In this document: positions 8,933-38,003 of the stretch, in pieces
Numbering within the stretch: position 1 is the stretch's first letter
How the letters are laid out: each line of letters starts with the position of its first letter
Origin: Dactylosporangium sp.
GTDB taxonomy: Bacteria > Actinomycetota > Actinomycetes > Mycobacteriales > Micromonosporaceae
Assembly (NCBI GenBank): GCA_025965915.1
Contig: JAOPWA010000527.1
Span: 1-38,003 of the forward strand
Direction of reading: 5' to 3'
DNA length: 38,003 nucleotides
Program-made: the position numbers and the translations under genes
Notes under the pieces: generated by a model
What the model saw: the letters and a program-made list of their open reading frames with translations, nothing else
Told to the model about the DNA's origin: nothing
The model's database searches: none

Positions 8933-8963
8933 CAGCAACGCCGGTCGTCGACCGGACGGTCGA

Positions 8964-8993
8964 ATCGCGCTCCGAGGGTTCTCGGGGCGCGAT
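8964..8993. terminator. 13-bp hairpin between convergent genes
   Basis: Positions 8964-8976 pair with 8981-8993 around the loop GGTT, with a single G-U pair. It separates the DUF6131 gene (+) from the membrane-protein gene at 9052-9579 (-), so it can act as a bidirectional terminator. Confidence 0.65.
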
Positions 8994-9051
8994 CCGACGT
9001 TTCATGACGGCATCGGTACCTGCTGCCCGTCGGCGATGTAACGGGACCCGG

Positions 9052-9579
9052 CTACCGGATACCTCGGCGCCCGTACCTGCGGTAAGCCAGATAGGCCAGG
9101 TAGGCGGCGAGTGGTAGCTCGACGATGAGGGCGGACACCAGACTCGCGACGGTGTCGGTGCCTCCGGAGGCGGTCATCACGTCGAACCAGGCGTCGCAGA
9201 CCAGAAGCGCCGCGGTGGCGAGAGCCGTGGCGGAGAACGCCTCGAGCCCCCGCCACGCCGACCATCCGACCGCGGCGAGGCTGAACAGCAGCAGGAAGTC
9301 GAACCCGATCCACGCCGCGTCCCAGTGGCCGGCGATGTAACGGGCGGGGAGCGTCTGCGCCTGGGCGAACATCCACCCGGCCAAGGCGGTGCACGCCGAG
9401 ACGACGCCGAGCGTGAACAATCTGCGCTGGTTGGGAGTGGGTCCGACGCCGGGCAGGCGCGCGAGCCGGCGCGCGAGCGCGCGACGCTCCTCCGCGCTCA
9501 ACAGGAGAAGTTGCTCGTCCGTGATGACTGGCCTGCCGGGCGTGGAAACACTGTCCGGTTTCGTCGCTACTGATGTCAC
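9052..9579 (-). CDS. Uncharacterised four-helix membrane protein
   Basis: A 175-residue protein that I do not recognise by name. Residues 1-50 are polar and include ITDEQLLLLSAEERRALARRL, a likely amphipathic helix. Four hydrophobic segments follow: about 53-72, 86-107, 113-133 and 142-163. The C-terminus is basic (RRYGRRGIR). The start is GTG at 9579-9577, with GAGGAGGA just upstream. It is transcribed away from the two-component pair at 9687-12019 but on the same strand and 107 nt downstream of it, so it could be a distal member of that operon. Layouts of this kind (cytosolic helical head plus four helices) are common among actinobacterial hypothetical membrane proteins. Confidence 0.75.
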   Translation of the reverse strand: MTSVATKPDSVSTPGRPVITDEQLLLLSAEERRALARRLARLPGVGPTPNQRRLFTLGVVSACTALAGWMFAQAQTLPARYIAGHWDAAWIGFDFLLLFSLAAVGWSAWRGLEAFSATALATAALLVCDAWFDVMTASGGTDTVASLVSALIVELPLAAYLAYLAYRRYGRRGIR

Positions 9580-9686
9580 TGTTCCTCCTCGGTCACCCCG
9601 GCAGGGTGGTGGCCGGCCAGCAGTTTTTCACTGCTAACAATCGGCCGGGAGGCTTCGAGTTGACCCAGAACGAGCTGTGAGTTCGA

Positions 9687-10385
9687 TCAGCGAATCACGC
9701 CGGTCGGCGCGGCGTTGGTGCGGAACCGGTAGCGGTGCTCGGGGCGCCCGGTGGTCCCGTACCGCAGGAGGACCTCGATGCTGCCCTGCTGGGCAAGCTG
9801 GGCCAGATAGCGCTGGGCGGTCGGCCGGCTGATGCCGAGCACGTTGGCGAGCTCGGTCGCGGAAATGTCCGGTTGGGCGGTGCGTACGGCGTCGCGGACG
9901 AGTCGCATGGTCGACGGGGAGAATCCCTTGCCGCTGGCCGGCGCGGTCCGCAGCAGCCCGTACAGGGTGTCCACGTCGTCCTGGTCGGCTTCGTCGTCGA
10001 GGGCTCCGAGTTGCTTGCGCATGTCCCGGTACGCGATGAGCCGCTCCGCGAGCCGGTTGAAGCCGAACGGTTTGACCAGGTAATGCACGGCGCCGAGCTG
10101 CATCGCGGTGCGGACGCTGCGGATGTCGCGCGCGGCGGTGATCACGATGATGTCCGGGTGTGGTCCGTCGATGTTGAGGATGCGCCGCATCAGCGCCAGC
10201 CCGTGCTCGTCGGGTAGGTACAGGTCGAGCAGGACGAGGTCGGGCGGGCTGGCGTGCAGGGTCTGCCAGGCGCCGGCCGCGGTGTGCGCGGTGCCGAGCG
10301 CCCGGAATCCGGTGACCCGCTCGACGTAGCCGGCGTGGATGGCGGCGACCCGGTAGTCGTCGTCGACGACGAGAGTGGAGATCAT
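9687..10385 (-). CDS. CitB/DcuR-type response regulator
   Basis: A 232-residue regulator. The receiver domain (1-120) has the acidic triplet DDD (8-10), the phosphoacceptor D54 in LVLLDLYLPDEHG, T83 in VITAARD and K105 in YLVKPFGFNRL. A linker with an acidic patch (DDEADQDDVD, about 130-139) leads to a C-terminal winged helix with ATELANVLGISRPTAQRYL (about 176-194) and a closing YRFR wing. This layout belongs to the CitB/DcuR subfamily, which usually controls uptake of small carboxylates. Its start overlaps the kinase stop by ATGA. The divergent ABC importer at 12227-15065 is the likely target. Confidence 0.9.
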   Translation of the reverse strand: MISTLVVDDDYRVAAIHAGYVERVTGFRALGTAHTAAGAWQTLHASPPDLVLLDLYLPDEHGLALMRRILNIDGPHPDIIVITAARDIRSVRTAMQLGAVHYLVKPFGFNRLAERLIAYRDMRKQLGALDDEADQDDVDTLYGLLRTAPASGKGFSPSTMRLVRDAVRTAQPDISATELANVLGISRPTAQRYLAQLAQQGSIEVLLRYGTTGRPEHRYRFRTNAAPTGVIR

Positions 10386-12019
10386 CCCAGGGCTCCTACG
10401 GGCTGGGTTCCGACTGGCCGCGGCCGGTCCGCCGCCGGTAGCACGACGGTGAACACCGCCCCCGGCCCTTCGGTGACGCTGATCTCACCGCCGAGGCGCT
10501 GCACGAGCCGGCGCACGAGCGCGAGGCCGAGCCCGCGGCGTAGCTCGCCGTGGGGTGTCTTGGTGGTGAAGCCGTCCTGGAAGATCTCATCGGCGGCCCC
10601 GGGTGGGATTCCCGCACCGGTGTCGGTGACGCATAGTCGGATACCCCGAGAGTCCTGCCGGATCTCGAGAACCACCCGCGCGGGCGGCGGTCCGGACGCG
10701 GCGGCGTCGATCGCGTTGTCGAGCAGGTTTCCGATCATGGTCAGCAGTGCCTGCCCCCTTCCCTGCGTGTCATCGAGCCAGGAGTCATCGGTGAGGACCA
10801 GTTCGACCCCCCGCTCGGCGGCGACGGTGGCCTTGGCGAGGAAGAGGCCAGCCACCAGGGGACTCGCGATACGCTCGCGCACCGACTCCAACAACATGCC
10901 CTGCGTACCTTCGGTGTCGGCGATGTAGTGCAGCGCCTCGTCGAGGTCGCCGAGCTCGAGCAGGCCGGTGAGCGTGTGCATGCGGTTGGAGAACTCGTGG
11001 CCCTGCGCGCGCAGCGCGTCGGTCAGTCCACGGACGTTGTCGAGCTCGCGCAGCAGGCCCTCCAGTTCGGTGCGGTCCCGGAGCGTGACAACCGCCCCGA
11101 GAACCTGGCCGCCCAGGTTCACCGGCATCCGGTTGACCTCCAGGCAGTGCTCGTCGGTGAGGACGATCTGACCGGCGCCGGCGACCTCGCCGGAGAGTAC
11201 GTCACGCAGCCTTCCCTCCGGTACGAGTTCGTCGATGCGACGACTCACCACGCCGGCGGGCAGTCGTAGCAGCCGGCGGGCCTCGTCGTTGACCAGGCTG
11301 ACCCGCCCGGTTCCGTCGAAGGTCACCACGCCCTCCCGGACGCCGTGCAGCATCGCCTCCCGTTCGGACAACAGCGAGGTGATCTCGTGCAGTTCCAGCC
11401 CGTAGGTGCTGCGTTTGAGGCGGCGCGCCAGCAGGTACGACGCGGCCACACCGACGGCGAGGGCGAGGGCGGCGAAGAGGGCGTACATGGGTAGCTGCCG
11501 CCCGAGTTGGCCGGTGACGTTCTTCTCGAGGAAGCCCACCGACACCTCGCCGACGACGGCGCCGGTCGGCCCGCGCAGCGGAGCCTTGCCGTTGGCCGAC
11601 GGTCCCAGGCTGCCCAAGTTGGTGCCGGTGTGGAAATTGCCGTCGAGGGCCACGACGGGCTCCTCGATCCGCTGCCCGACCAGCGCCTTGTTGCGGTGGG
11701 AGTGCCGGATGCCGTCACGGTCGATCACAACGACGTAGTCGGCGCCGGAGTCCTTGCGTACCTGTTCGGCGATGTTCTGGATGACATCCCCACCGCCGCC
11801 GTACTCCATCGCCTGCCGGATCGTCGGGATGCCCGCCACGGTCTTCGCGATGGCCAGGGCCTGCGCCCGGTACTCCAGGTCGAGCTGCTGTCGCTGCTCG
11901 TAGGTGAACAGAGCGAACCCGAGCAGCACGGTGACGATCAGGATCGTCAGATGGCTGGCCAGGATCTGGGTGGCCAGCTTTCTGCGTCGTACCTTCTCGC
12001 GCACTCGCGGAACTCCCAT
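10382..12019 (-). CDS. CitA/DcuS-type sensor histidine kinase
   Basis: A 545-residue kinase of the citrate/C4-dicarboxylate sensor family. TM1 spans about 18-38 and TM2 about 177-198. Between them is an extracytoplasmic PAS-like sensor domain containing VVVIDRDGIRHSHRN (97-111), the region that contacts carboxylates in CitA. A cytoplasmic PAS (about 220-320) precedes the H box QGHEFSNRMH (H341), then an HATPase with NLLDNAIDAA, DTGAGI and RRGLGLALVRR. ATG 12019 is chosen because an AGGTG lies 10 nt upstream; GTG 12031 is four codons earlier and also possible. Family knowledge says small organic acids; here the adjacent transporter is of the NMT1/THI5 type instead of a carboxylate carrier, so the ligand may differ. 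Confidence 0.9.
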   Translation of the reverse strand: MGVPRVREKVRRRKLATQILASHLTILIVTVLLGFALFTYEQRQQLDLEYRAQALAIAKTVAGIPTIRQAMEYGGGGDVIQNIAEQVRKDSGADYVVVIDRDGIRHSHRNKALVGQRIEEPVVALDGNFHTGTNLGSLGPSANGKAPLRGPTGAVVGEVSVGFLEKNVTGQLGRQLPMYALFAALALAVGVAASYLLARRLKRSTYGLELHEITSLLSEREAMLHGVREGVVTFDGTGRVSLVNDEARRLLRLPAGVVSRRIDELVPEGRLRDVLSGEVAGAGQIVLTDEHCLEVNRMPVNLGGQVLGAVVTLRDRTELEGLLRELDNVRGLTDALRAQGHEFSNRMHTLTGLLELGDLDEALHYIADTEGTQGMLLESVRERIASPLVAGLFLAKATVAAERGVELVLTDDSWLDDTQGRGQALLTMIGNLLDNAIDAAASGPPPARVVLEIRQDSRGIRLCVTDTGAGIPPGAADEIFQDGFTTKTPHGELRRGLGLALVRRLVQRLGGEISVTEGPGAVFTVVLPAADRPRPVGTQPVGALG

Positions 12020-12026
12020 CGACCGT

Positions 12027-12040
12027 TTCACCTACGTGAA
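12027..12040. promoter_or_regulatory. Palindrome TTCAC-N4-GTGAA at the start of the kinase gene
   Basis: TTCAC (12027-12031) and GTGAA (12036-12040) form an inverted repeat with a 4-nt centre, overlapping the translation start region of the kinase gene inside the 207-nt divergent control region. It could be an operator for autoregulation or simply chance; it would need more copies or footprint data. Confidence 0.3.
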
Positions 12041-12183
12041 CATCGCGTATCGGTAGTGTGCCCAACCCCCGTCGATCCGCGAAGTGTCGGACCGGTTAGC
12101 AGAACGCACAAAACAAAGAGAAACGAACGTTAGAAGTCCTTACCGACACAAGGCTTCATGGAAGTGACCGGCCTCATACGTTG

Positions 12184-12211
12184 TGCCGAATATCGAAACA
12201 ATGCCGAAACA
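12184..12211 (+). promoter_or_regulatory. Direct repeats in the leader of the ABC operon
   Basis: CGAAACA occurs at 12194-12200 and 12205-12211, exactly 11 nt apart, and TGCCGAA at 12184-12190 and 12202-12208. They end 5 nt before the GGGAG ribosome-binding site of the ATPase gene. Spacing of one helical turn suits a dimeric response regulator, but the sites lie late in the leader for an activator. Confidence 0.3.
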
Positions 12212-12226
12212 CGTCGGGAGCTGGCG

Positions 12227-13075
12227 ATGACCGAAGCGGTGCAACACATTCCGGGTCGAGAAACCCTGACCCCTTCCGCCACCGCCGGGATCGATCTGCG
12301 GCGGGCGACCAAGCGGTTCCGTACGCCGAACGGCGGCGTGTACACCGCGCTGCGCGACCTGGACCTCAGGGTCGCGCCGGGGGAGTTCTGTGCGGTCGTC
12401 GGGCCGACGGGCTGCGGTAAGTCCACCACCCTGTCGTTGATCTCCGGTCTTGAACGCGTCAGCGCCGGCGAGGTGCTCGTCGCTGGCCAGCCGGTCGACG
12501 GCATCACCGCGGGCACCGCGTTCATGTTCCAGACCGACGCCGTCTTCCCGTGGAAGTCGGTGCTGGCGAACGTCGCGGCGGGCCCGCTGTTTCGGGGCGT
12601 ACCGAAGAAGGAGGCGATCGCCAACGCCCGTGACTGGCTGCGCAGGGTAGGGCTGTCCGGGTTCGAGGACCGCCACCCGCACCAGCTCTCCGGTGGCATG
12701 CGCAAGCGGGTGGCGCTGGCCCAGAGTCTGATCAACGAACCGCGGATCCTGCTCATGGACGAACCATTCTCCGCCCTCGACGTGCAGACCCGGTCGATCA
12801 TGTCCGACGAGCTGCTCGCTCTCTGGGACCTCAGCCGCCCGACGGTCGTGTTCATCACCCACGACCTGGAAGAGGCGATCGCGCTCGCCGACAAGGTCGT
12901 CGTCATGACCGCCGGCCCCGGCACGATCAAGGCCACCTTCGACGTCGACCTGCCCAGGCCGCGCAAGGTGCAGGAGATCCGGTTCGAACCCCGGTTCGTC
13001 GAGCTCTACCACCAGATCTGGGAAACGCTGCGCGACGAGGTCCAGGTCGCCTATGCCCGCAGCACCGCCTCCTGA
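12227..13075 (+). CDS. ABC importer ATPase (nitrate/sulfonate/taurine class)
   Basis: A 282-residue ABC ATPase. It shows Walker A GPTGCGKST (59-67), the Q loop near MFQTDAVFPWKS (100-111), the signature LSGGMRKR (154-161), Walker B ILLMDEPFSALD (174-185) and the switch histidine in FITHDLEEA. The FPWKSV sequence after the Q loop is characteristic of the TauB/SsuB/NrtD group. ATG 12227 has GGGAG 6 nt upstream; an in-frame ATG at 12158 is not supported. It is first in a three-gene operon with a permease and a lipoprotein and diverges from the CitA/CitB-type pair. Confidence 0.92.
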   Translation: MTEAVQHIPGRETLTPSATAGIDLRRATKRFRTPNGGVYTALRDLDLRVAPGEFCAVVGPTGCGKSTTLSLISGLERVSAGEVLVAGQPVDGITAGTAFMFQTDAVFPWKSVLANVAAGPLFRGVPKKEAIANARDWLRRVGLSGFEDRHPHQLSGGMRKRVALAQSLINEPRILLMDEPFSALDVQTRSIMSDELLALWDLSRPTVVFITHDLEEAIALADKVVVMTAGPGTIKATFDVDLPRPRKVQEIRFEPRFVELYHQIWETLRDEVQVAYARSTAS

Positions 13076-13109
13076 CGCTCGAGTACCGCCCAAAGGAAGA
13101 AGCAGAGCC

Positions 13110-13988
13110 ATGTCTCAAACCACTACACCGGCGGCCACCGGGCAGGAGCGCGAGAGTGCCGTCCTCGTCGCCGATCCGGCGGTCCAGCGCCGCGCCAAGC
13201 GCGAGCGCATCGTCGTCAATGTTCTCCGGGTCGCCGTGTTCGTCGTGTTCGTCGGCGGCTGGGAGGTGCTGACCGACCTGAAGGTGCTCGACCCGTTCTT
13301 CTTCGGCCAGCCCAGCAGGGTCATCGTGCAGTTGCGGGACTGGATGGTCAACGGCACCGAGGCCGGGCCGCTCTGGACGCAGGTCGGCGTCACCCTCGAA
13401 GAGGCTCTGATCGGCTTCGCCATCGGCGTCGTCGGGGGCATCGTCTGCGGCATCGCCCTCGGGCGCATACCGATGCTGTCGAAGGTCTTCGGTCCGTACA
13501 TCAAGGTCATGAACTCGATCCCGCGCATCGTGCTCGGCTCGATCTTCATCGTCTGGCTCGGCCTGGGCCTGTCCTCCAAGGTCGCGCTCGCCGTGGTCCT
13601 GGTCTTCTTCGCGGTCTTCTTCAACGCCTTCCAGGGCGTGCGTGAGGTCGACCGCAACCTGATCGCCAACGCCCGGATTCTCGGCGCATCCGGCCGCCAG
13701 GTCACCACCCAGGTCGTGCTGCCGTCGGCGCTGACCTGGATCATCGCGAGCCTGCACGTCAGCTTCGGCTTCGCGCTCATCGGCGCGATCGTCGGGGAGT
13801 TCCTCGGCGCCCAGCAAGGCCTGGGACTGCTCATCTCGCAGGCCCAGGGCACGTTCAACCCCAACGCGGTCTTCGCCGCAATGGTCATCATCGCCGTCGT
13901 CGCGCTCGCCGCCGAGGGGCTCATCGCCCTGTTGGAGAGGGCCCTGCTGTCCTGGCGGCCACCGCAGCTGTCCGGTGCGGAGCTGTAA
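13110..13988 (+). CDS. ABC importer permease (nitrate/sulfonate/taurine class)
   Basis: A 292-residue permease with a polar N-terminal tail (1-35) and about six membrane helices. The binding-protein-dependent transport motif that docks the ATPase is visible as ANARILGASGRQVTTQVVLP. Internal hallmarks are NSIPRIVLGSIFIVWLGLG and IGAIVGEFLGAQQGLG, both usual in SsuC/TauC-like permeases. The start at ATG 13110 is preceded by AAAGGAAGA. It lies 34 nt after the ATPase gene and 30 nt before the lipoprotein gene, so one transcript is expected. Confidence 0.92.
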   Translation: MSQTTTPAATGQERESAVLVADPAVQRRAKRERIVVNVLRVAVFVVFVGGWEVLTDLKVLDPFFFGQPSRVIVQLRDWMVNGTEAGPLWTQVGVTLEEALIGFAIGVVGGIVCGIALGRIPMLSKVFGPYIKVMNSIPRIVLGSIFIVWLGLGLSSKVALAVVLVFFAVFFNAFQGVREVDRNLIANARILGASGRQVTTQVVLPSALTWIIASLHVSFGFALIGAIVGEFLGAQQGLGLLISQAQGTFNPNAVFAAMVIIAVVALAAEGLIALLERALLSWRPPQLSGAEL

Positions 13989-14018
13989 GAGTCCTTCACC
14001 CCCACATTGGAGAAGATC

Positions 14019-15065
14019 GTGACCCGAAAACTGGTAGTCGTAGGCGCGGCCGCGGCCGCGCTGGCCATCACTCTCAGCGCCTGCGGAGGTGCGGCCAAGA
14101 AGTCCACCGCGAGCGGGAACAATTCCGCCGCCGGTACCACCGTCAAGCTGATGGTCGGCGGCGTCAACAAGCAGATCTACCTGTCGGCCAAGCTCACCGA
14201 GCAGCTCGGCTACTTCACCGAGCAGGGACTCAAGGTCGAGCTGTCCGACGAGCCGGCCGGTGTGAACGCCGAGACCGCGATGCTGGCGGGTGAGGTGGAC
14301 GGCGTCGTCGGTTTCTACGACCACACCATCGACCTGCAGGGCAAGGGCAAGCAGGCCGAGTCGGTCGTGCAGTTGCAGCAGGCACCCGGTGAGGTGGAGC
14401 TGTGCCGCAGCGACGTCGCCGACGCCATCAAGTCGCCGGCCGATTGGAAGGGCCGCAAGCTCGGGGTAACCGGCCTCGGCTCGTCGACCAACTTCCTCAC
14501 GAAGTTCCTTGCCGTGCACAACGGGCTACAGCCAACCGACATCACCTCGGTGGCAGTCGAGGCCGGTCAGACGTTCATCGCCGCGATGCAGCACAAGCAG
14601 ATCGACTGCGGTATGACCACCGAGCCGACGATCTCGGCGCTGCTCAACACCGGACAGGCCAAGGTACTGGTGGACATGCGTACCCCGGAAGGCGCGAAGG
14701 CCGCGCTCGGCGGCACGTACCCCGCCGCGAGCCTGTACATGCAGACGGCGTGGGTGAACAGCCACAAGCCGACGGTGCAGAAGCTGGCCAACGCGTTCGT
14801 CAAGACCCAGAAGTGGATCGCAGCCCACAGCGCCGCGGAGATCACCGACAAGATGCCGGCCGAGTACTACGCCGGAGTCGGAAAGGACCAGTACATCAAG
14901 GCCCTCGATGCGGAGAAGGCGATGTACACCCCCGACGGCATGATGCCGGCGGACGGCCCGCAGACAGTGCTCAACGTCTTGAGCGCCTTCGACCCCAGCG
15001 TCAAGGGCCACACCATCGACCTGAGCAAGACGTACACCACGGAGTTCGCCAAGAACGCCTCCTGA
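14019..15065 (+). CDS. Substrate-binding lipoprotein, NMT1/THI5-like
   Basis: A 348-residue lipoprotein. The signal peptide ends in a TLSAC lipobox with the lipidated C22, followed by a Ser/Ala/Asn linker. The mature part has the periplasmic-binding-protein type 2 layout of the NMT1/THI5/SsuA group: TVKLMVGGVNKQIYLSAKLTEQLGYF near the start, LAGEVDGVVGFYDH, and the central WKGRKLGVTGLGSSTNF. Substrates in this group include sulfonates, nitrate, pyrimidine precursors of thiamine and aromatic acids; nothing here fixes which. GTG 14019 is the likely start because GGAG sits 6 nt upstream and the signal peptide begins there; TTG 14007 is the alternative. A strong hairpin follows at 15116. Confidence 0.9.
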   Translation: MTRKLVVVGAAAAALAITLSACGGAAKKSTASGNNSAAGTTVKLMVGGVNKQIYLSAKLTEQLGYFTEQGLKVELSDEPAGVNAETAMLAGEVDGVVGFYDHTIDLQGKGKQAESVVQLQQAPGEVELCRSDVADAIKSPADWKGRKLGVTGLGSSTNFLTKFLAVHNGLQPTDITSVAVEAGQTFIAAMQHKQIDCGMTTEPTISALLNTGQAKVLVDMRTPEGAKAALGGTYPAASLYMQTAWVNSHKPTVQKLANAFVKTQKWIAAHSAAEITDKMPAEYYAGVGKDQYIKALDAEKAMYTPDGMMPADGPQTVLNVLSAFDPSVKGHTIDLSKTYTTEFAKNAS

Positions 15066-15115
15066 GACCGCGATATGCGCGCAACCGATATGCCCCCGAT
15101 CGGATACGCGCGCAA

Positions 15116-15151
15116 TGGCGCCGGGTCGGTTTCGTTGCCGATCCGGCGCCA
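15116..15151 (+). terminator. Hairpin terminator after the ABC operon
   Basis: A 14-bp stem with one G-U pair (15116-15129 with 15138-15151) and the 8-nt loop TTTCGTTG begins 50 nt after the lipoprotein stop. It separates the importer operon from the GGDEF-EAL gene. Confidence 0.7.
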
Positions 15152-15256: not shown

Positions 15257-17593
15257 ATGGCGGCCGGTGACGAGATCAGGCGCATCGGCGCCGCCGCATT
15301 CCTGCCCGCCTCCGTCGTGTTCGCCGTCGCCGCCACGGCCTGGTTCGCGCTCAACCAGCAAGGACCGTACGGCCCGCCCGCTCTGGGGTGGGTCGGCCCG
15401 CCGGCGACCCTGGCGCTGGCAGCGATGGCGCTGCGCCGTAGCGCGGTGTCACCCCGGCTGCCGGCCGCCGCCCGGCGATTCTGGAACCAGCTCACGGTGG
15501 CGGCCACAGTGGCGGCCGTGGGTACGGTCGTCCAGGCCGCCTATGCCGTTACCGGTCCCGTCTCGGACGCGACCAGGGTGTCGCCACTGGCCAGGTTCTG
15601 TTTCGTCGGCGCGGTGCTGTACGCCCTGTGGGCCGTGCTGCGGGTGCCGGCCGCGGCGCGGGCCCGCGGCGAATGGGTACGAATGTCGCTGGACTGCTCG
15701 ACCGTGGTGCTCGGTGCGGCCATCTTCATGTGGTACGTGGGCGTCGGGCCGCTGTTGGCCGGCTCCGGTCGGAATGTCGCCTGGGTATCCCTGGCCGTCG
15801 GCGTCATCTGCCTCGTCGGCGTGGCGGCGGTCTGCAAGGTCGTACTGGTCGGGGGTGGGCCGGTGGACGTGGGCGCGCTGCGCCTGCTCGGCGTCGGCCT
15901 GTTCGTCGGCGGCGTCAGCGCCGGCACCGCGACCCTGATCGCGAGTCAACCGCACCTCGTGCCCGGCCAGATCTCGGTGCCCTACATCTCGGTGCTCATC
16001 GTCCTCGCCGCGGAGCGCCAGCAGCGGGCGTTGACCGCCGACCGGCCGGCGAACCGCCCCCGGTTCTCGCCCAGGGTCAGCCCCCTGCCGTACGCGGCCG
16101 TCGCCGCCACCGACGTGCTACTGGTCCTGGCGATGACGGGCCGCGTCGACGACCGTCGGTACGTGGTCGTCGGCGGCGTCATCACCATCACAGCCCTCGT
16201 CGTCGTCCGCCAACTGGTCGCGTTCTCCGACAACGCCCGGCTGGTGGACCGGCTGCGGCAGCAGGAGGATCGGCTGCGTCACCAGGCCTCCCACGACGCG
16301 CTCACCCGGCTGGCCAACCGGGCGTACTTCGCCGAGCGCGTCGAGGCCGCGCTCAGCGCTGGGACCGGGTCGGGTGGTGACCTGACCGTGCTGCTCATTG
16401 ACCTCGACGACTTCAAGACCGTCAACGACACGCTGGGGCACAGCGTCGGTGACCGGCTGCTGGCGGTCGTCGCCGAGCGGGTCCGCGGGTGCGTCCGTCC
16501 CGACGACACCGTGGCGCGTCTCGGCGGTGACGAGTTCGCGGTGCTGCTGTGGCAGGCGTGGCCGGCGACTGTCGACGCCGTCGCCGAGGGCATCCTCGCG
16601 AGCCTGCGTCAGCCGGTCGTCGTCGACAGCTACGAGCTGCTCGTACAGGCCAGCATCGGAGTTACCGGAGCGTGTCCGGGCGACGACCCCGAGGCGTTAC
16701 TGCGTAAGGCCGACATCGCGATGTATGCCGCCAAGGAGGGCGGTAAGGACAACTTCGCGCGTTACGTGCCTGGAATGGGCGCCAGCATCCTCGAGCACGC
16801 CCAACTCGGTGCGCAGCTACGCCAGGCGCTAGACGGCGGCCAACTGCGCCTGCTCTACCAACCGGTGGTCCGGCTCTCCGACGCCCGGATCATCGGCATG
16901 GAGGCGCTGGTGCGGTGGCGGCACCCCAGCCGCGGTGAGGTCTCACCCGCCGACTTCATCCCCACCGCGGAGCGGACCGGCCTCATCGTGCCCCTCGGCC
17001 GCTGGGTGCTGCGTGAGGCGTGCCGGCAGAAGGCAGCGTGGCGAGAGGCCTACGGCGACGACTCGCCGGCCACCGTCGGCGTCAACGTGTCCGGCCGGCA
17101 GTTGCAGGATCCGGGCTTCGCCGACGAGGTCGCCGACGCCGTCCACGAGGCCGGCCTGGAACCGCACAACCTCGTACTGGAGGTGACCGAGAACGCCGTC
17201 CTCACCGGCGGCCAGGCTTTCGACACGATGCACGCGCTGCGCGCCTTCGGGGTGCGCCTCGCGCTCGACGACTTCGGCACCGGCCAGTCGTCGCTCGGCC
17301 TCATCCGTACCTGCCCGGTGCACATTCTCAAGCTCGACAGGTCGTTCGTCATGGACTGCGGCACCGACCCTCGGGCGCAGCGGGCCGAGCAGCAGGTGGC
17401 GGTCGCGTCAGCGGTCCTCCACATGGCCGACGACCTCGGCCTCGACGCCGTGGCCGAGGGCATCGAAAACCAGGAGCAGGCCGACCGGATGTGCGCGCTG
17501 GGCTACCGGCTGGGCCAGGGCTACCACCTGGTCCGCCCGCTGCCCGCCGACGAGGTCGCCGGCTTGCTGGCCCTGGCGGTGGTCGCTCCGTGA
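15257..17593 (+). CDS. Membrane GGDEF-EAL protein (c-di-GMP synthase/phosphodiesterase)
   Basis: A 778-residue protein. The N-terminal 330 residues form about eight to ten hydrophobic helices, probably a membrane sensor. The GGDEF domain starts near HDALTRLANRAYF and has an intact GGDEF at 423-427, with an RxxD inhibitory site (RPDD) five residues before it. The EAL domain has E549 in GMEALVRWRHP, NVSGRQLQ, EVTENAVL and DDFGTG at 671-676, so its metal and catalytic residues look complete. Both activities are therefore possible; in hybrid proteins one often dominates and the other responds to GTP or c-di-GMP. The ATG at 15257 is chosen over TTG 15251. It is a single gene between a terminator and a convergent DUF4032 gene. 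A link to the glycan locus 6.7 kb away is only a thought. Confidence 0.92.
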   Translation: MAAGDEIRRIGAAAFLPASVVFAVAATAWFALNQQGPYGPPALGWVGPPATLALAAMALRRSAVSPRLPAAARRFWNQLTVAATVAAVGTVVQAAYAVTGPVSDATRVSPLARFCFVGAVLYALWAVLRVPAAARARGEWVRMSLDCSTVVLGAAIFMWYVGVGPLLAGSGRNVAWVSLAVGVICLVGVAAVCKVVLVGGGPVDVGALRLLGVGLFVGGVSAGTATLIASQPHLVPGQISVPYISVLIVLAAERQQRALTADRPANRPRFSPRVSPLPYAAVAATDVLLVLAMTGRVDDRRYVVVGGVITITALVVVRQLVAFSDNARLVDRLRQQEDRLRHQASHDALTRLANRAYFAERVEAALSAGTGSGGDLTVLLIDLDDFKTVNDTLGHSVGDRLLAVVAERVRGCVRPDDTVARLGGDEFAVLLWQAWPATVDAVAEGILASLRQPVVVDSYELLVQASIGVTGACPGDDPEALLRKADIAMYAAKEGGKDNFARYVPGMGASILEHAQLGAQLRQALDGGQLRLLYQPVVRLSDARIIGMEALVRWRHPSRGEVSPADFIPTAERTGLIVPLGRWVLREACRQKAAWREAYGDDSPATVGVNVSGRQLQDPGFADEVADAVHEAGLEPHNLVLEVTENAVLTGGQAFDTMHALRAFGVRLALDDFGTGQSSLGLIRTCPVHILKLDRSFVMDCGTDPRAQRAEQQVAVASAVLHMADDLGLDAVAEGIENQEQADRMCALGYRLGQGYHLVRPLPADEVAGLLALAVVAP

Positions 17594-34110: not shown

Positions 34111-35736
34111 TCAGTAGCGGAACCTGCCCACAACCTGCTGCATGTGCGTCGACATCTCGGCCAGGTGCTGCGCGGCCGCGTTGGCTTCGCTGACGCCGGC
34201 TGCGGCGACCTGCACCGCGGCCGCCAGGCCGGACGCGCCCTCGGCGACCTGGTCGCCGGCGCTGGCGGCCTCGTGGACGCTGCGGCTCATTTCAGCCGTG
34301 GTCGCCGTCTGCTCCTCCACCGCCGAGGCGATCATCGTCTGGAAGTCGTTGACCTTACCGATGATCTCGGCGATCTCGGCGATCGCCGTAACCGCGCTCG
34401 TGGTGTCGCCCTGGATCGTCTCGATCCGCCGGCTGATGTCCTCGGTGGCACGGGCGGTCTCCTGCGCCAGATCCTTGACCTCGCTCGCGACGACGGCGAA
34501 CCCCTTGCCGGCGTCACCGGCCCGCGCCGCCTCGATGGTGGCGTTGAGCGCGAGCAGGTTCGTCTGCTCCGCGATGGCGGTGATCACCTTGATCACGTTA
34601 CCGATCTCGGTGGAGGACTCGCCCAGCCGCTCGACCACGGCGTTGGTCGAGTTTGCGACCGTCACCGCCCTGCCGGCCACGTCGACCGCCTGGTTGACGT
34701 TCTGGCTGATCTCGCGGATCGACTGGCCCATCTCCTCGGCGCCGGCCGCGACGGTGGTCACGCTGCGAGAGGTCTCATCGCTGGAACGTGAGACGACGGC
34801 GGCGCGTTCGGCGGCGTCGCCGATGCCGTCGTTGATGCGAGCGCTGGTGACCGAGAGTTCTTCGGAGGAGGCGGCGACCGACCCGGCCGCATCGTTCATC
34901 GCCTGCACCGTCTCGCGCAGGCTCCCGGTGGCCGTGCCCAGGGCGTCGGCCATCTGGCCGACCTCGTCGCGCTGGAGCACCACGGCACTCTGGGTGAGGT
35001 CGCCGTCGGCGACCGCGCGTAGAACATGGGCGACCCGCCGCATCGGCACGACCACCAGACGCCCGACGTAAATCGCCAGTACCAGGGCGATCACCAGGCC
35101 GACGCCGATCAGAACCAGCACGTCGCGCTGTGCGTTGCGGACCGTGGCATCGAACCCCTTGGCGGCGATGAGCGCCTTGCTGGCCCGGTCGATCTCGGCC
35201 TGCACCAGCGTCTCGTACACCTTGCGCAGGTCGCGGTTGGGCCCGTACGCGGCCTTGACTGCCTCGGCTCTCTTGCCGCTCTCGAAGAGGGCGAACTCGG
35301 CTTTCACCGCGTCGAACCAGCCGTCGATCTTGGGTTGGATCTCGTTCACCTTGGCGACCTCGGCCGGCGTGCTGCCGGCCTTGCGGGCCTGCTCCAGGGC
35401 GGCGTCGGCGACGGGCTGGCGGCTCAGGAACTCGGCCTTGAACTTGGCGTCACCGGCCATCAGGTAGCCGCGTTCGTCGGTCGAGGCGGCCTTCGCCGCC
35501 AAGGCCGCGTTCTCGAGGCCCATGATATACGGAACCTCGTGACCGACCTCCTGCCGGCGGTAGTCGCGCAGGTCACCGATGCGTACCAGCGCGAGGCCGC
35601 CGACCAGGATCGAGAGGACGATGCCGACGGCCGTGGCCGTCAGGATCTTCGTCCTGATCCGCCGGTCGGCGAACCAGTTCAGCGGCCCGCGCCGCTCCCG
35701 CCGTGGTACGTCCCCGGTGCTCACGTGTGACGCCAT
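34111..35736 (-). CDS. Methyl-accepting chemotaxis protein
   Basis: A 541-residue receptor. TM1 covers about 30-52, then a helical extracytoplasmic sensor region (about 53-200, with [15 protein letters not shown] as in CHASE3/4HB receptors). TM2 is about 206-226, followed by HAMP (about 226-280) and a long signalling coiled coil with the conserved tip [18 protein letters not shown] and [10 protein letters not shown] (390-420). The C-terminus ends in VGRFRY. ATG 35736 is preceded by AAGGAG and GAGGAC; in-frame upstream sequence looks like leader. No cheA, cheW or flagellar genes are in the window, so partners lie elsewhere. Signal unknown. Confidence 0.92.
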
Positions 35737-36008
35737 GTCCTCAGGTCTCCTTCGCGTGAGGTGGCGCCACAGCCTGGCCCACCCGGCACTAGCGCCGGGC
35801 ATGTCGGCCGGGCGCCCCGGTTCTTGATGAGAATTTCGGCCGAATGTCGGGCTTCGATGGCGGATTGTGATGTTCGGAACGTTTGTCATTTTTGGGCGTC
35901 GGGTACGCAGCGGCAACGGCGAAAGCCGTCACTGACGTTGCTCGACTGGTAAGCGCTCGTCCCTGGCACCGGCGCGCACCTACAACCGACGCCGACAGGG
36001 GGTGGTCA
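35737..36008. promoter_or_regulatory. 272-nt region between the receptor and the Opu-type chimera
   Basis: Contains no good coding frame. It holds an AT-richer patch around 35860-35895 suitable for divergent promoters, and a short hairpin ACGGC-GAAA-GCCGT (35916-35929) with a GNRA-type tetraloop. I see nothing else. Confidence 0.3.
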
Positions 36009-36641
36009 ATGACGTTCTCCCAGTACCTGGCAAGCCGGCGCGCTCTCCTGCTGGCTCAGACCTTGGAACACGCAAATATCGTGCTGATGTCAGTCGCGTT
36101 GGCGACCGTCATCGGAGTCCTGATCGGCATTGCCACATATCGTCATCGGCGGGCGCGGGCTATCGCGGTCGCGATCGCCGCGGCGATTCTGACCATCCCG
36201 TCGTTCGCGCTGCTCGGCCTGATGATCGCCCCGTTGGGGCTGGGCTATGTGCCCGCCCTGGTGGCGCTGAGCCTGTACGCGTTGCTGCCGATCATCCGTA
36301 ACACGGTCGTCGGCTTGACCGGGATTGATCCGGCGCTCGCCGAAGCCGCCCGGGGTATCGGCATGAGCCGGCTACGGTCCCTGGCTACCGTGGAGTTGCC
36401 GCTCGCCTGGCCGGTCATCCTGATCGACGACAAGCCGTTCTTCCCCATCTACAACCCGGCGCTCACGGTCAACGGCGCGACCGCGGCCAGGTACCCCGGC
36501 CTCGTGAAGCTACTCGACCCGATCACCGCCAAGCTCGACGACGCCACCCTGCGCAGACTCAACGAGCAGGTCGACGTCAAGGGCGAACTGGCGTCCACGG
36601 TCGCCGCCGACTGGATGAGGCAACAGGGCTTCATCGGCTGA
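36009..36641 (+). pseudogene. Chimera: OpuCB-type permease N-terminus fused to OpuC-type binding-protein C-terminus
   Basis: A 210-residue open frame made of two unrelated protein parts. Residues 1-140 are the front of an osmoprotectant (glycine betaine/choline) ABC permease: LLLAQTLEHANIVLMSVALA, LTIPSFALLGLMIAPLGLG, ALLPIIRNTVVGL and the docking motif AARGIGMSRLRSLATVELPL. At about codon 137-142 (nucleotides 36415-36434) this switches to IDDKPFFPIYNPALTV and LDDATLRRLNEQVDV, the C-terminus of an OpuAC/OpuCC-type binding protein. The end of the permease, any other operon genes and most of the binding protein are missing. The frame is intact, with GGGGG just before ATG 36009. The simplest reading is one internal deletion in an operon. 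The product cannot be a normal permease, but it may still be made. Confidence 0.85.
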
Positions 36642-36687
36642 GACCCGAGGACAACTGGTCGACGGCGGCACCGCCGATCCGTTGTCA

Positions 36688-38003
36688 TCACGCCCCAGGT
36701 CGACGTCCCGGCCGCCGGGCCGGCCGTCCCGCGCCGGCCGGAGTGAGCCGGGACCGTTTGGCGTCGATGAACTCCCGCAGCCGGTCCAACGGCCAGGTGT
36801 TGATGACGTCGTCGGGGGTCAGCCAGCCCCGCTGCGCGGTTCCCACCCCGTATCGCAGGAACTCCAGATGTCCGACGGCGTGCGCGTCGGTGTTGATCGC
36901 GAACTTCACGCCGTGGCGCTTGGCGCGCAGGATCAGGTCGTCGGGGAGGTCCAGCCGGTCCGGGAAGCTGTTGACCTCCAAAGCTGTGCCCGTACCCGCG
37001 GCGGCCTCGAACACGGCGTCGAAGTCGGCGTTGACGGGCGGGCGCTGGTTGATCCGTCGGGTCGTCGGGTGGCCGATGATGTTCACGTACGGGTTCTCGC
37101 AGGCGCGTACCAGCCGGCGGGTCATCGCCTTCCGTGGCTGGCCGAAGCGCGAGTGAATCGAGGCGACGCGGATGTCGAACCCGGCGAGGAACTCCTCGTC
37201 CCAGTCGACGTCGCCGTCCGGGTCGATGTTGAGCTCCGTACCGTGCAGCAGCTCCAGGTCCACCGTGTCGGCGAGCATGCGCAGCCGCTCGCGCTGAGCG
37301 AGCATCTTGTCGTCGGTCATGCGCTGCATCGGCAGGTTCTTGGCGTGGTCGGTGACGGCGTAGTAGTGGTAGCCCCGCCGGGCCGCGGCGGTCAGCATGT
37401 CCACCAGCGACGATGTGCCGTCGGTGAGGTCGGTGTGGGTGTGCAGGTCGCCCTGGATGTCGGCGATCGTGACCAGGTCCGGCAGCCGGCCGGTGCGGGC
37501 CGCCTCGACTTCGCCCCGGTCCTCGCGCAGCGTCGGCGCGATCCACGCCAGGCCCAGCTTCGCGTACACCGCTTCTTCGGTCTCGGACACCACGAGGGAA
37601 TCGTCGGCGACGCGGAAGAGCCCGTACTCCGACAGCTTCAGCCCCTTGCGCACCGCGATCTCGCGTACCCGGATGTTGTGGTCCTTGGATCCGGTGAAGT
37701 ACTGCAGCGCCGCGCCCCAGGACTGCGGCGGCACGACGCGCAGGTCAACCTGCAGGCCGGTCGTGGTGCGTACCGACGTCTTGGTCGGGCCGTGCGCGAT
37801 GACCTCCCTGACGAGGGGGAGGTGGGTGAACGCGTCCATCAACGGGCCGGACTCGGTCGACGCGGCGAGCACGTCCACGTCGCCGACCGTCTCGCACATC
37901 CGGCGCAGCGACCCCGCGTAGACGCAGGTCAGGCAGCTCGGCTCGGCGGACAGCGCGTGGATGATCTCCTCTGCGACGTCCATCGCCTCGCTGAGGAGTA
38001 CCC
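36688..38003 (-). CDS. polX: PolX-type DNA polymerase/PHP domain protein, 5' end outside window
   Basis: Partial gene; the frame stays open to the right edge with the reading VLLSEAMDVAEEI, so the ATG at 37983 is internal. Visible first is the polymerase-beta palm pattern GSLRRMCETVGDVDVL (the GS.RR.....GD.D.L motif). After it comes a PHP phosphoesterase domain with GDLHTHTDLTDG, TDHAKNL, HGTELNID, SIHSRF, NIIGHPTTR, EVNSFPDRLDL and INTDAHAVG, a complete set of metal ligands. Bacterial PolX proteins of this kind do short-gap repair synthesis, and the PHP domain gives 3'-5' exonuclease activity. The C-terminus is a basic Arg/Pro/Gly tail. Convergent with the Opu chimera. Confidence 0.9.
   Translation of the reverse strand, partial: VLLSEAMDVAEEIIHALSAEPSCLTCVYAGSLRRMCETVGDVDVLAASTESGPLMDAFTHLPLVREVIAHGPTKTSVRTTTGLQVDLRVVPPQSWGAALQYFTGSKDHNIRVREIAVRKGLKLSEYGLFRVADDSLVVSETEEAVYAKLGLAWIAPTLREDRGEVEAARTGRLPDLVTIADIQGDLHTHTDLTDGTSSLVDMLTAAARRGYHYYAVTDHAKNLPMQRMTDDKMLAQRERLRMLADTVDLELLHGTELNIDPDGDVDWDEEFLAGFDIRVASIHSRFGQPRKAMTRRLVRACENPYVNIIGHPTTRRINQRPPVNADFDAVFEAAAGTGTALEVNSFPDRLDLPDDLILRAKRHGVKFAINTDAHAVGHLEFLRYGVGTAQRGWLTPDDVINTWPLDRLREFIDAKRSRLTPAGAGRPARRPGRRPGA

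Follow-up and report, generated by a model that had tools for sequence, protein, structure and literature searches.

An in-frame fusion of an OpuC-type permease and the end of its binding protein, probably left by a recent operon deletion

A single open reading frame in the window (the whole 38,003-nucleotide stretch of DNA analysed) joins the front of an ABC permease gene to the end of a substrate-binding protein gene. Comparison with intact operons in relatives indicates that a recent deletion of ~3.1 kb probably joined the first permease gene to the end of the binding-protein gene of a four-gene operon, leaving a non-working remnant. Most probably the frame is a newly formed pseudogene, paralogous operons being retained elsewhere in the genome. 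The draft assembly, in which the window is contig C192, totals 6.13 Mb in 685 contigs, with 86.4% completeness and 5.2% contamination. Three relatives, with one genome per species, were used for comparison: Planosporangium flavigriseum TBRC 198 (G003, a congener), another congener (G002), and a member of another genus of the family (G011).

The fusion frame and its predicted product

The fusion occupies 36009-36641 on the forward strand and encodes 210 amino acids in an unbroken frame, with an ATG at 36009 and a stop codon at 36639-36641. The locus contains the following features:

34111..35916, minus strand: upstream neighbour, a methyl-accepting chemotaxis protein (Pfam CHASE3, HAMP and MCPsignal; same place in G002, 76% protein identity)
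35930..36008, plus strand: leader region, common to the fusion and the intact G003 operon (blastn of 35930-36426 against L032 4956-5451, 82.7%)
36009..36422, plus strand: front of a permease gene, first 138 codons, ending just past the EAA-type loop (Pfam BPD_transp_1; 88%, 87% and 81% identity to the first permease of G003, G002 and G011)
36423..36425, plus strand: junction codon 139, permease to the left and binding protein to the right (both breakpoints compared in the three relatives)
36426..36641, plus strand: end of an OpuAC-type substrate-binding protein, last 71 codons and stop (Pfam OpuAC, partial NCBIfam OsmF; 83%, 80% and 74% identity in G003, G002 and G011)
36688..38001, minus strand: downstream neighbour, PolX-like, with a DNA-polymerase-beta thumb and a PHP domain (Pfam; same place in G002, 86%)

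Residues 33-138 matched BPD_transp_1 (E 6.3e-14, profile positions 2-111 of 184) and residues 136-205 matched OpuAC (E 1.5e-11, profile positions 189-257 of 257), each half clearing the curated cut-off of its own Pfam family. In NCBIfam, the front gave partial matches to choline, ProW and other ABC permeases and the tail a partial match to OsmF, all far under the whole-protein cut-offs, as expected of fragments. The resemblance of the halves to permease and binding-protein families lies far beyond chance. Neither domain is complete: the corresponding matches in G003 span positions 3-178 of BPD_transp_1 and 1-257 of 257 of OpuAC, and the fusion retains about three fifths of the permease domain and about a quarter of the binding domain.

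The first-pass annotation had described an OpuCB/ProW-like N-terminal half joined in frame, near 36415-36434, to some 70 residues from the end of an OpuC-type binding protein. Both assignments held, with residues 1-138 forming an OpuC/ProW-type permease front and residues 140-210 the binding-protein end, and the join was located inside that range, at codon 139. The separate family comparison that it had proposed for the two halves returned for each only its own Pfam family. Its description of the frame as well initiated also agrees with the alignments, in which the ATG coincides with the permease start used for the relatives, and the preceding 79 bp align with G003.

The interval 34111-38001 is filled by the chemotaxis, fusion and PolX-like frames, and neither an ATPase nor a partner permease nor a complete binding domain was seen there. 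The PolX-like gene extends off the end of the contig, which stops at 38003. A scan of 35700-36800 for sigma-70-type promoters and terminators found nothing.

Hydrophobic peaks in the permease part were located at residues 24-42, 51-69 and 78-96, with further, overlapping peaks at 63-81 and 83-101 but no peak beyond residue 103; this part is thus predicted to form three, perhaps four, membrane helices. The join falls directly after the EAA-type loop. This loop is cytoplasmic in this class of ABC transporter, so that the binding-protein tail is expected to face the cell interior, the wrong side for a binding protein to work. Judged from the sequence, import cannot be expected from a product without an ATPase, a partner permease or a ligand cleft.

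The intact operon in relatives and the search for a second fusion

The two halves matched the first and last genes of one operon, on the same contig, in G003, G002 and G011, with protein identities of 74-88% and match starts ~3.5 kb apart in each genome. By Pfam, the four genes of the G003 operon encode a permease, an ATPase with a CBS domain, a second permease and an OpuAC protein, and the same four frames are present and intact in G002 and G011. The DNA between the two matches comprises the rest of the first permease, the ATPase, the second permease and most of the binding protein. The spacing between equivalent codons is 3101 bp in G003, 3085 bp in G002 and 3153 bp in G011; relative to these operons, ~3.1 kb is absent at the fusion locus. 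Among PDB sequences, those nearest to the G003 binding protein are glycine-betaine/OsmF/ProX-type binding proteins (27 sequences, E up to 0.001).

In G002, the intact operon lies between the same chemotaxis and PolX-like genes that flank the fusion, and the pieces of the fusion match its two ends, as expected of a deletion remnant. The syntenic comparison suggested in the first-pass annotation thus makes the missing piece visible, and its view that the frame marks a deletion within a transport operon is borne out by the intact permease-ATPase-permease-binding protein operons, which reveal the lost middle. The window is otherwise colinear with the compared part of G002 (window position 16617 onward), and with G003 except for the moved operon, the comparison also showing other gaps. 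G003 keeps the PolX-like gene, and its operon lies several kb off, before an oxidoreductase gene; its chemotaxis protein differs, with 37% identity to that of the window. The G011 operon is at another or only partly shared place, and the only operon matched in a third congener (G001) is more distant (51% identity to the front, 45% to the tail).

In P. flavigriseum, the placement of the transporter operon, which differs from that in G002 and the window, represents a local rearrangement, and at L032 10391-11527 a frame that by eye resembles TnpB separates the oxidoreductase and chemotaxis genes. Separately, ~6 kb of the window (8940-15145) is unmatched at the equivalent place in G003, where 15237 and 15417 are adjacent.

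In our search for a second fusion, 95 of 101 genomes, own genome included, returned a match to the fusion, and among the matches listed, both halves occurred in one match only in the own genome; none of the matches listed for the 100 other relatives was a second fusion (at most 30 candidates scored per genome). A further search of the family used the 138 residues around the join as the query against 354 genomes, own genome included (E 1e-12). Matches were found in 47 of these, with full-length cover of both sides only in the genome of the window, and no second fusion was found in the 353 others (at most 11 candidates scored per genome). The matches in G307 and G043 extended far beyond the join; both loci are intact operons whose permease gene runs on without interruption. 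A conserved fusion family was therefore rejected, there being no second fusion among the matches listed for the 100 relatives or in the 353 family genomes. Close relatives sharing the fusion as a conserved protein, which the first-pass annotation had named as evidence against a deletion, were accordingly not encountered in the genomes searched.

Among plasmids, the whole fusion matched 586 records, 18 at 60-80% identity and 568 lower. In 138 records one place covers at least 80% of the query, and such places may be joined from separate pieces; the one of these that was opened, H17 (Sinorhizobium), has a separate binding-protein gene before a separate permease gene. With the 81 residues around the join as the query, 18 plasmid records matched, and among the 10 matches listed, one crosses the join (H21, Tsukamurella, 48%). 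It is annotated as an intact operon of permease, ATPase, permease and binding protein. Three loci, including one in P. flavigriseum, came up when contigs were scanned for the fusion by a motif-based method. Judged by titles and the opening of abstracts, none of the literature retrieved on microhomology-made in-frame bacterial gene fusions was on the subject, and none of that on Planosporangium genomes was on this locus.

The missing middle, the breakpoints and constraint

Used as a query against the own genome, 3.2 kb of the G003 operon recovered the two edge pieces of the window at 90% identity, and 44 further matches at 67-88% (40 of 629 first-look candidates scored). All matches longer than 190 bp were at 67-78%, on C379, C441, C208 and other contigs, and fell mostly in the ATPase part. 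The long DNA matches to the missing middle on C379, C441 and C208 were at 70-78% and represent diverged paralogues. A binding-protein search of the same genome (all 23 candidates scored) gave 54% identity on C379, 33% on C208, and 83% for the window tail. Only paralogue-level matches to the missing operon middle were thus found elsewhere in the 86%-complete assembly, with 40 of the 629 DNA candidates scored. Since the assembly is a draft of 685 contigs, this absence is not proof.

No large repeat was seen within 300 bp of the two breakpoints in G003, G002 or G011. The longest word common to both 300-bp breakpoint regions is 11 bases in G003, 9 in G002 and 9 in G011. At the join itself, the window would leave room for short homology of a few bases between the permease and binding-protein genes.

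Pairwise dN/dS between the window and the two congeners was 0.12-0.15 for the permease half and 0.29-0.31 for the tail, and between the congeners themselves 0.17 and 0.34, respectively. With G011 as the outgroup, 3 of 209 residues were changed solely in the window, all mildly, compared with 6 solely in G003 and 5 solely in G002. The window-branch omega for both halves together was 0.137 (90% bootstrap 0.084-0.214), a rough Nei-Gojobori branch estimate from three taxa; the 90% bootstrap interval for the tail alone (71 codons) was 0.07-0.81. Equally rough estimates for six neighbour genes were 0.159, 0.216, 0.163, 0.34, 0.36 and 0.176, of which the chemotaxis control (0.216) is unsound: the G003 protein, 37% identical, is not an orthologue, and its branch omega is 1.03. 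Assuming an omega of 0.05-0.20 under constraint, the unconstrained share of the window branch is at most ~18% (upper bootstrap bound).

Both halves evolve like intact genes. Neither contains a stop or frameshift, and omega is not above that of intact genes. A long-dead pseudogene was rejected on these observations. The lack of visible decay implies that the join is recent, that it does not exist in the cell (an assembly or amplification chimera), or that the fusion is itself under constraint.

Origin and meaning of the join

We propose that the ancestral locus was a four-gene quaternary-amine/osmoprotectant-type ABC importer operon, and that in this Planosporangium lineage a recent deletion of ~3.1 kb joined permease codon 138 to the last 71 binding-protein codons. 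The deletion would be real in the cell, and would have occurred through recombination between unlike or barely alike sites, with the reading frame preserved by luck, at a chance of one in three. The product would have three or four membrane helices, a binding-protein tail on the cytoplasmic side and no activity, and loss of the operon may have been tolerated because other operons of the same kind remain.

The main rival to a real recent deletion is an artefactual join, produced by a chimeric read, by a chimera formed during amplification or by mis-joining of mixed strains in the draft, with an intact operon in the cell. The number of contigs, the contamination and the undecayed state of both halves are in keeping with this explanation, and the 114-bp overlap between the ends of C441 and C379, with one mismatch, hints at strain mixture or an error-prone contig end. 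However, the breakpoint regions of the relatives offer no long repeat to mislead an assembler, with common words of only 9-11 bases, the missing middle was not found on another contig, and the window is otherwise colinear with the compared part of G002 and, the moved operon aside, with G003. We therefore regard an artefact as unlikely, though deserving of serious consideration.

The first-pass annotation had offered two outcomes, a pseudogene in the making and a new membrane protein; the former is favoured, and the latter found no positive evidence, the fusion occurring in no other genome searched. A new functional small membrane protein, with three or four helices and a cytoplasmic binding-protein tail, would account for the open frame, for the start and leader common to the relatives, and for the low window-branch omega. 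The low omega, however, is explained by the part of the branch spent as intact genes, and the fusion was seen in a single genome among those searched, has no ATPase or partner permease beside it, and carries a tail limited to OpuAC positions 189-257; such a protein seems very improbable. Even less credence is given to the idea that the fusion is kept as an expressed small membrane protein which, for example, offers its EAA-type loop to the ATPases of paralogous transporters, interfering with them or tuning them. Least probable of all, to the point of being negligible, is membership of the known permease/binding-protein fusions OpuABC and EgtUBC: the domain order is alike, with the permease first and the OpuAC-type domain last, but both domains are truncated here and no ATPase gene was seen alongside.

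In-frame gene remnants derived by deletion arise when two genes of an operon become joined through loss of the DNA that separated them. From these the fusion differs in nothing essential, and it has been seen in one genome. Its pieces match the first permease and the binding protein of an OpuC/OsmF-type quaternary-amine importer operon, but compared with such an operon the ATPase and the second permease are absent, the first permease lacks its end and little of the binding protein is left. OpuABC of Lactococcus and pneumococcal EgtUBC have transmembrane and substrate-binding domains that work with a separate ATPase subunit (PMC11065425, PMC9732360). OpuABC has transmembrane, scaffold and extracellular binding domains (PMC11065425), and in EgtUBC an entire extracellular binding domain comes after six predicted helices (PMC9732360). 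On these descriptions, the fusion resembles them in carrying a permease part and then a binding-protein part in one chain, and differs in that its two parts are truncated and its tail is predicted to be cytoplasmic.

The fusion shows how annotation pipelines can receive a plausible 'two-domain' protein that is probably a deletion scar. It is most likely otherwise biologically ordinary, and would represent the probable loss of one among several quaternary-amine-type uptake operons in one lineage.

A separate observation concerns C441 (L035 4123-7651) and C379 (L036 607-5956), which overlap at their ends (114 bp, 99.1% identity) and together look like a second OpuC-type operon split over two contigs. 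The flanks of this operon contain a PucR-type regulator, a DAO-family FAD oxidase, a Rieske oxygenase and a reductase, and the region resembles a betaine-type uptake and breakdown cluster.
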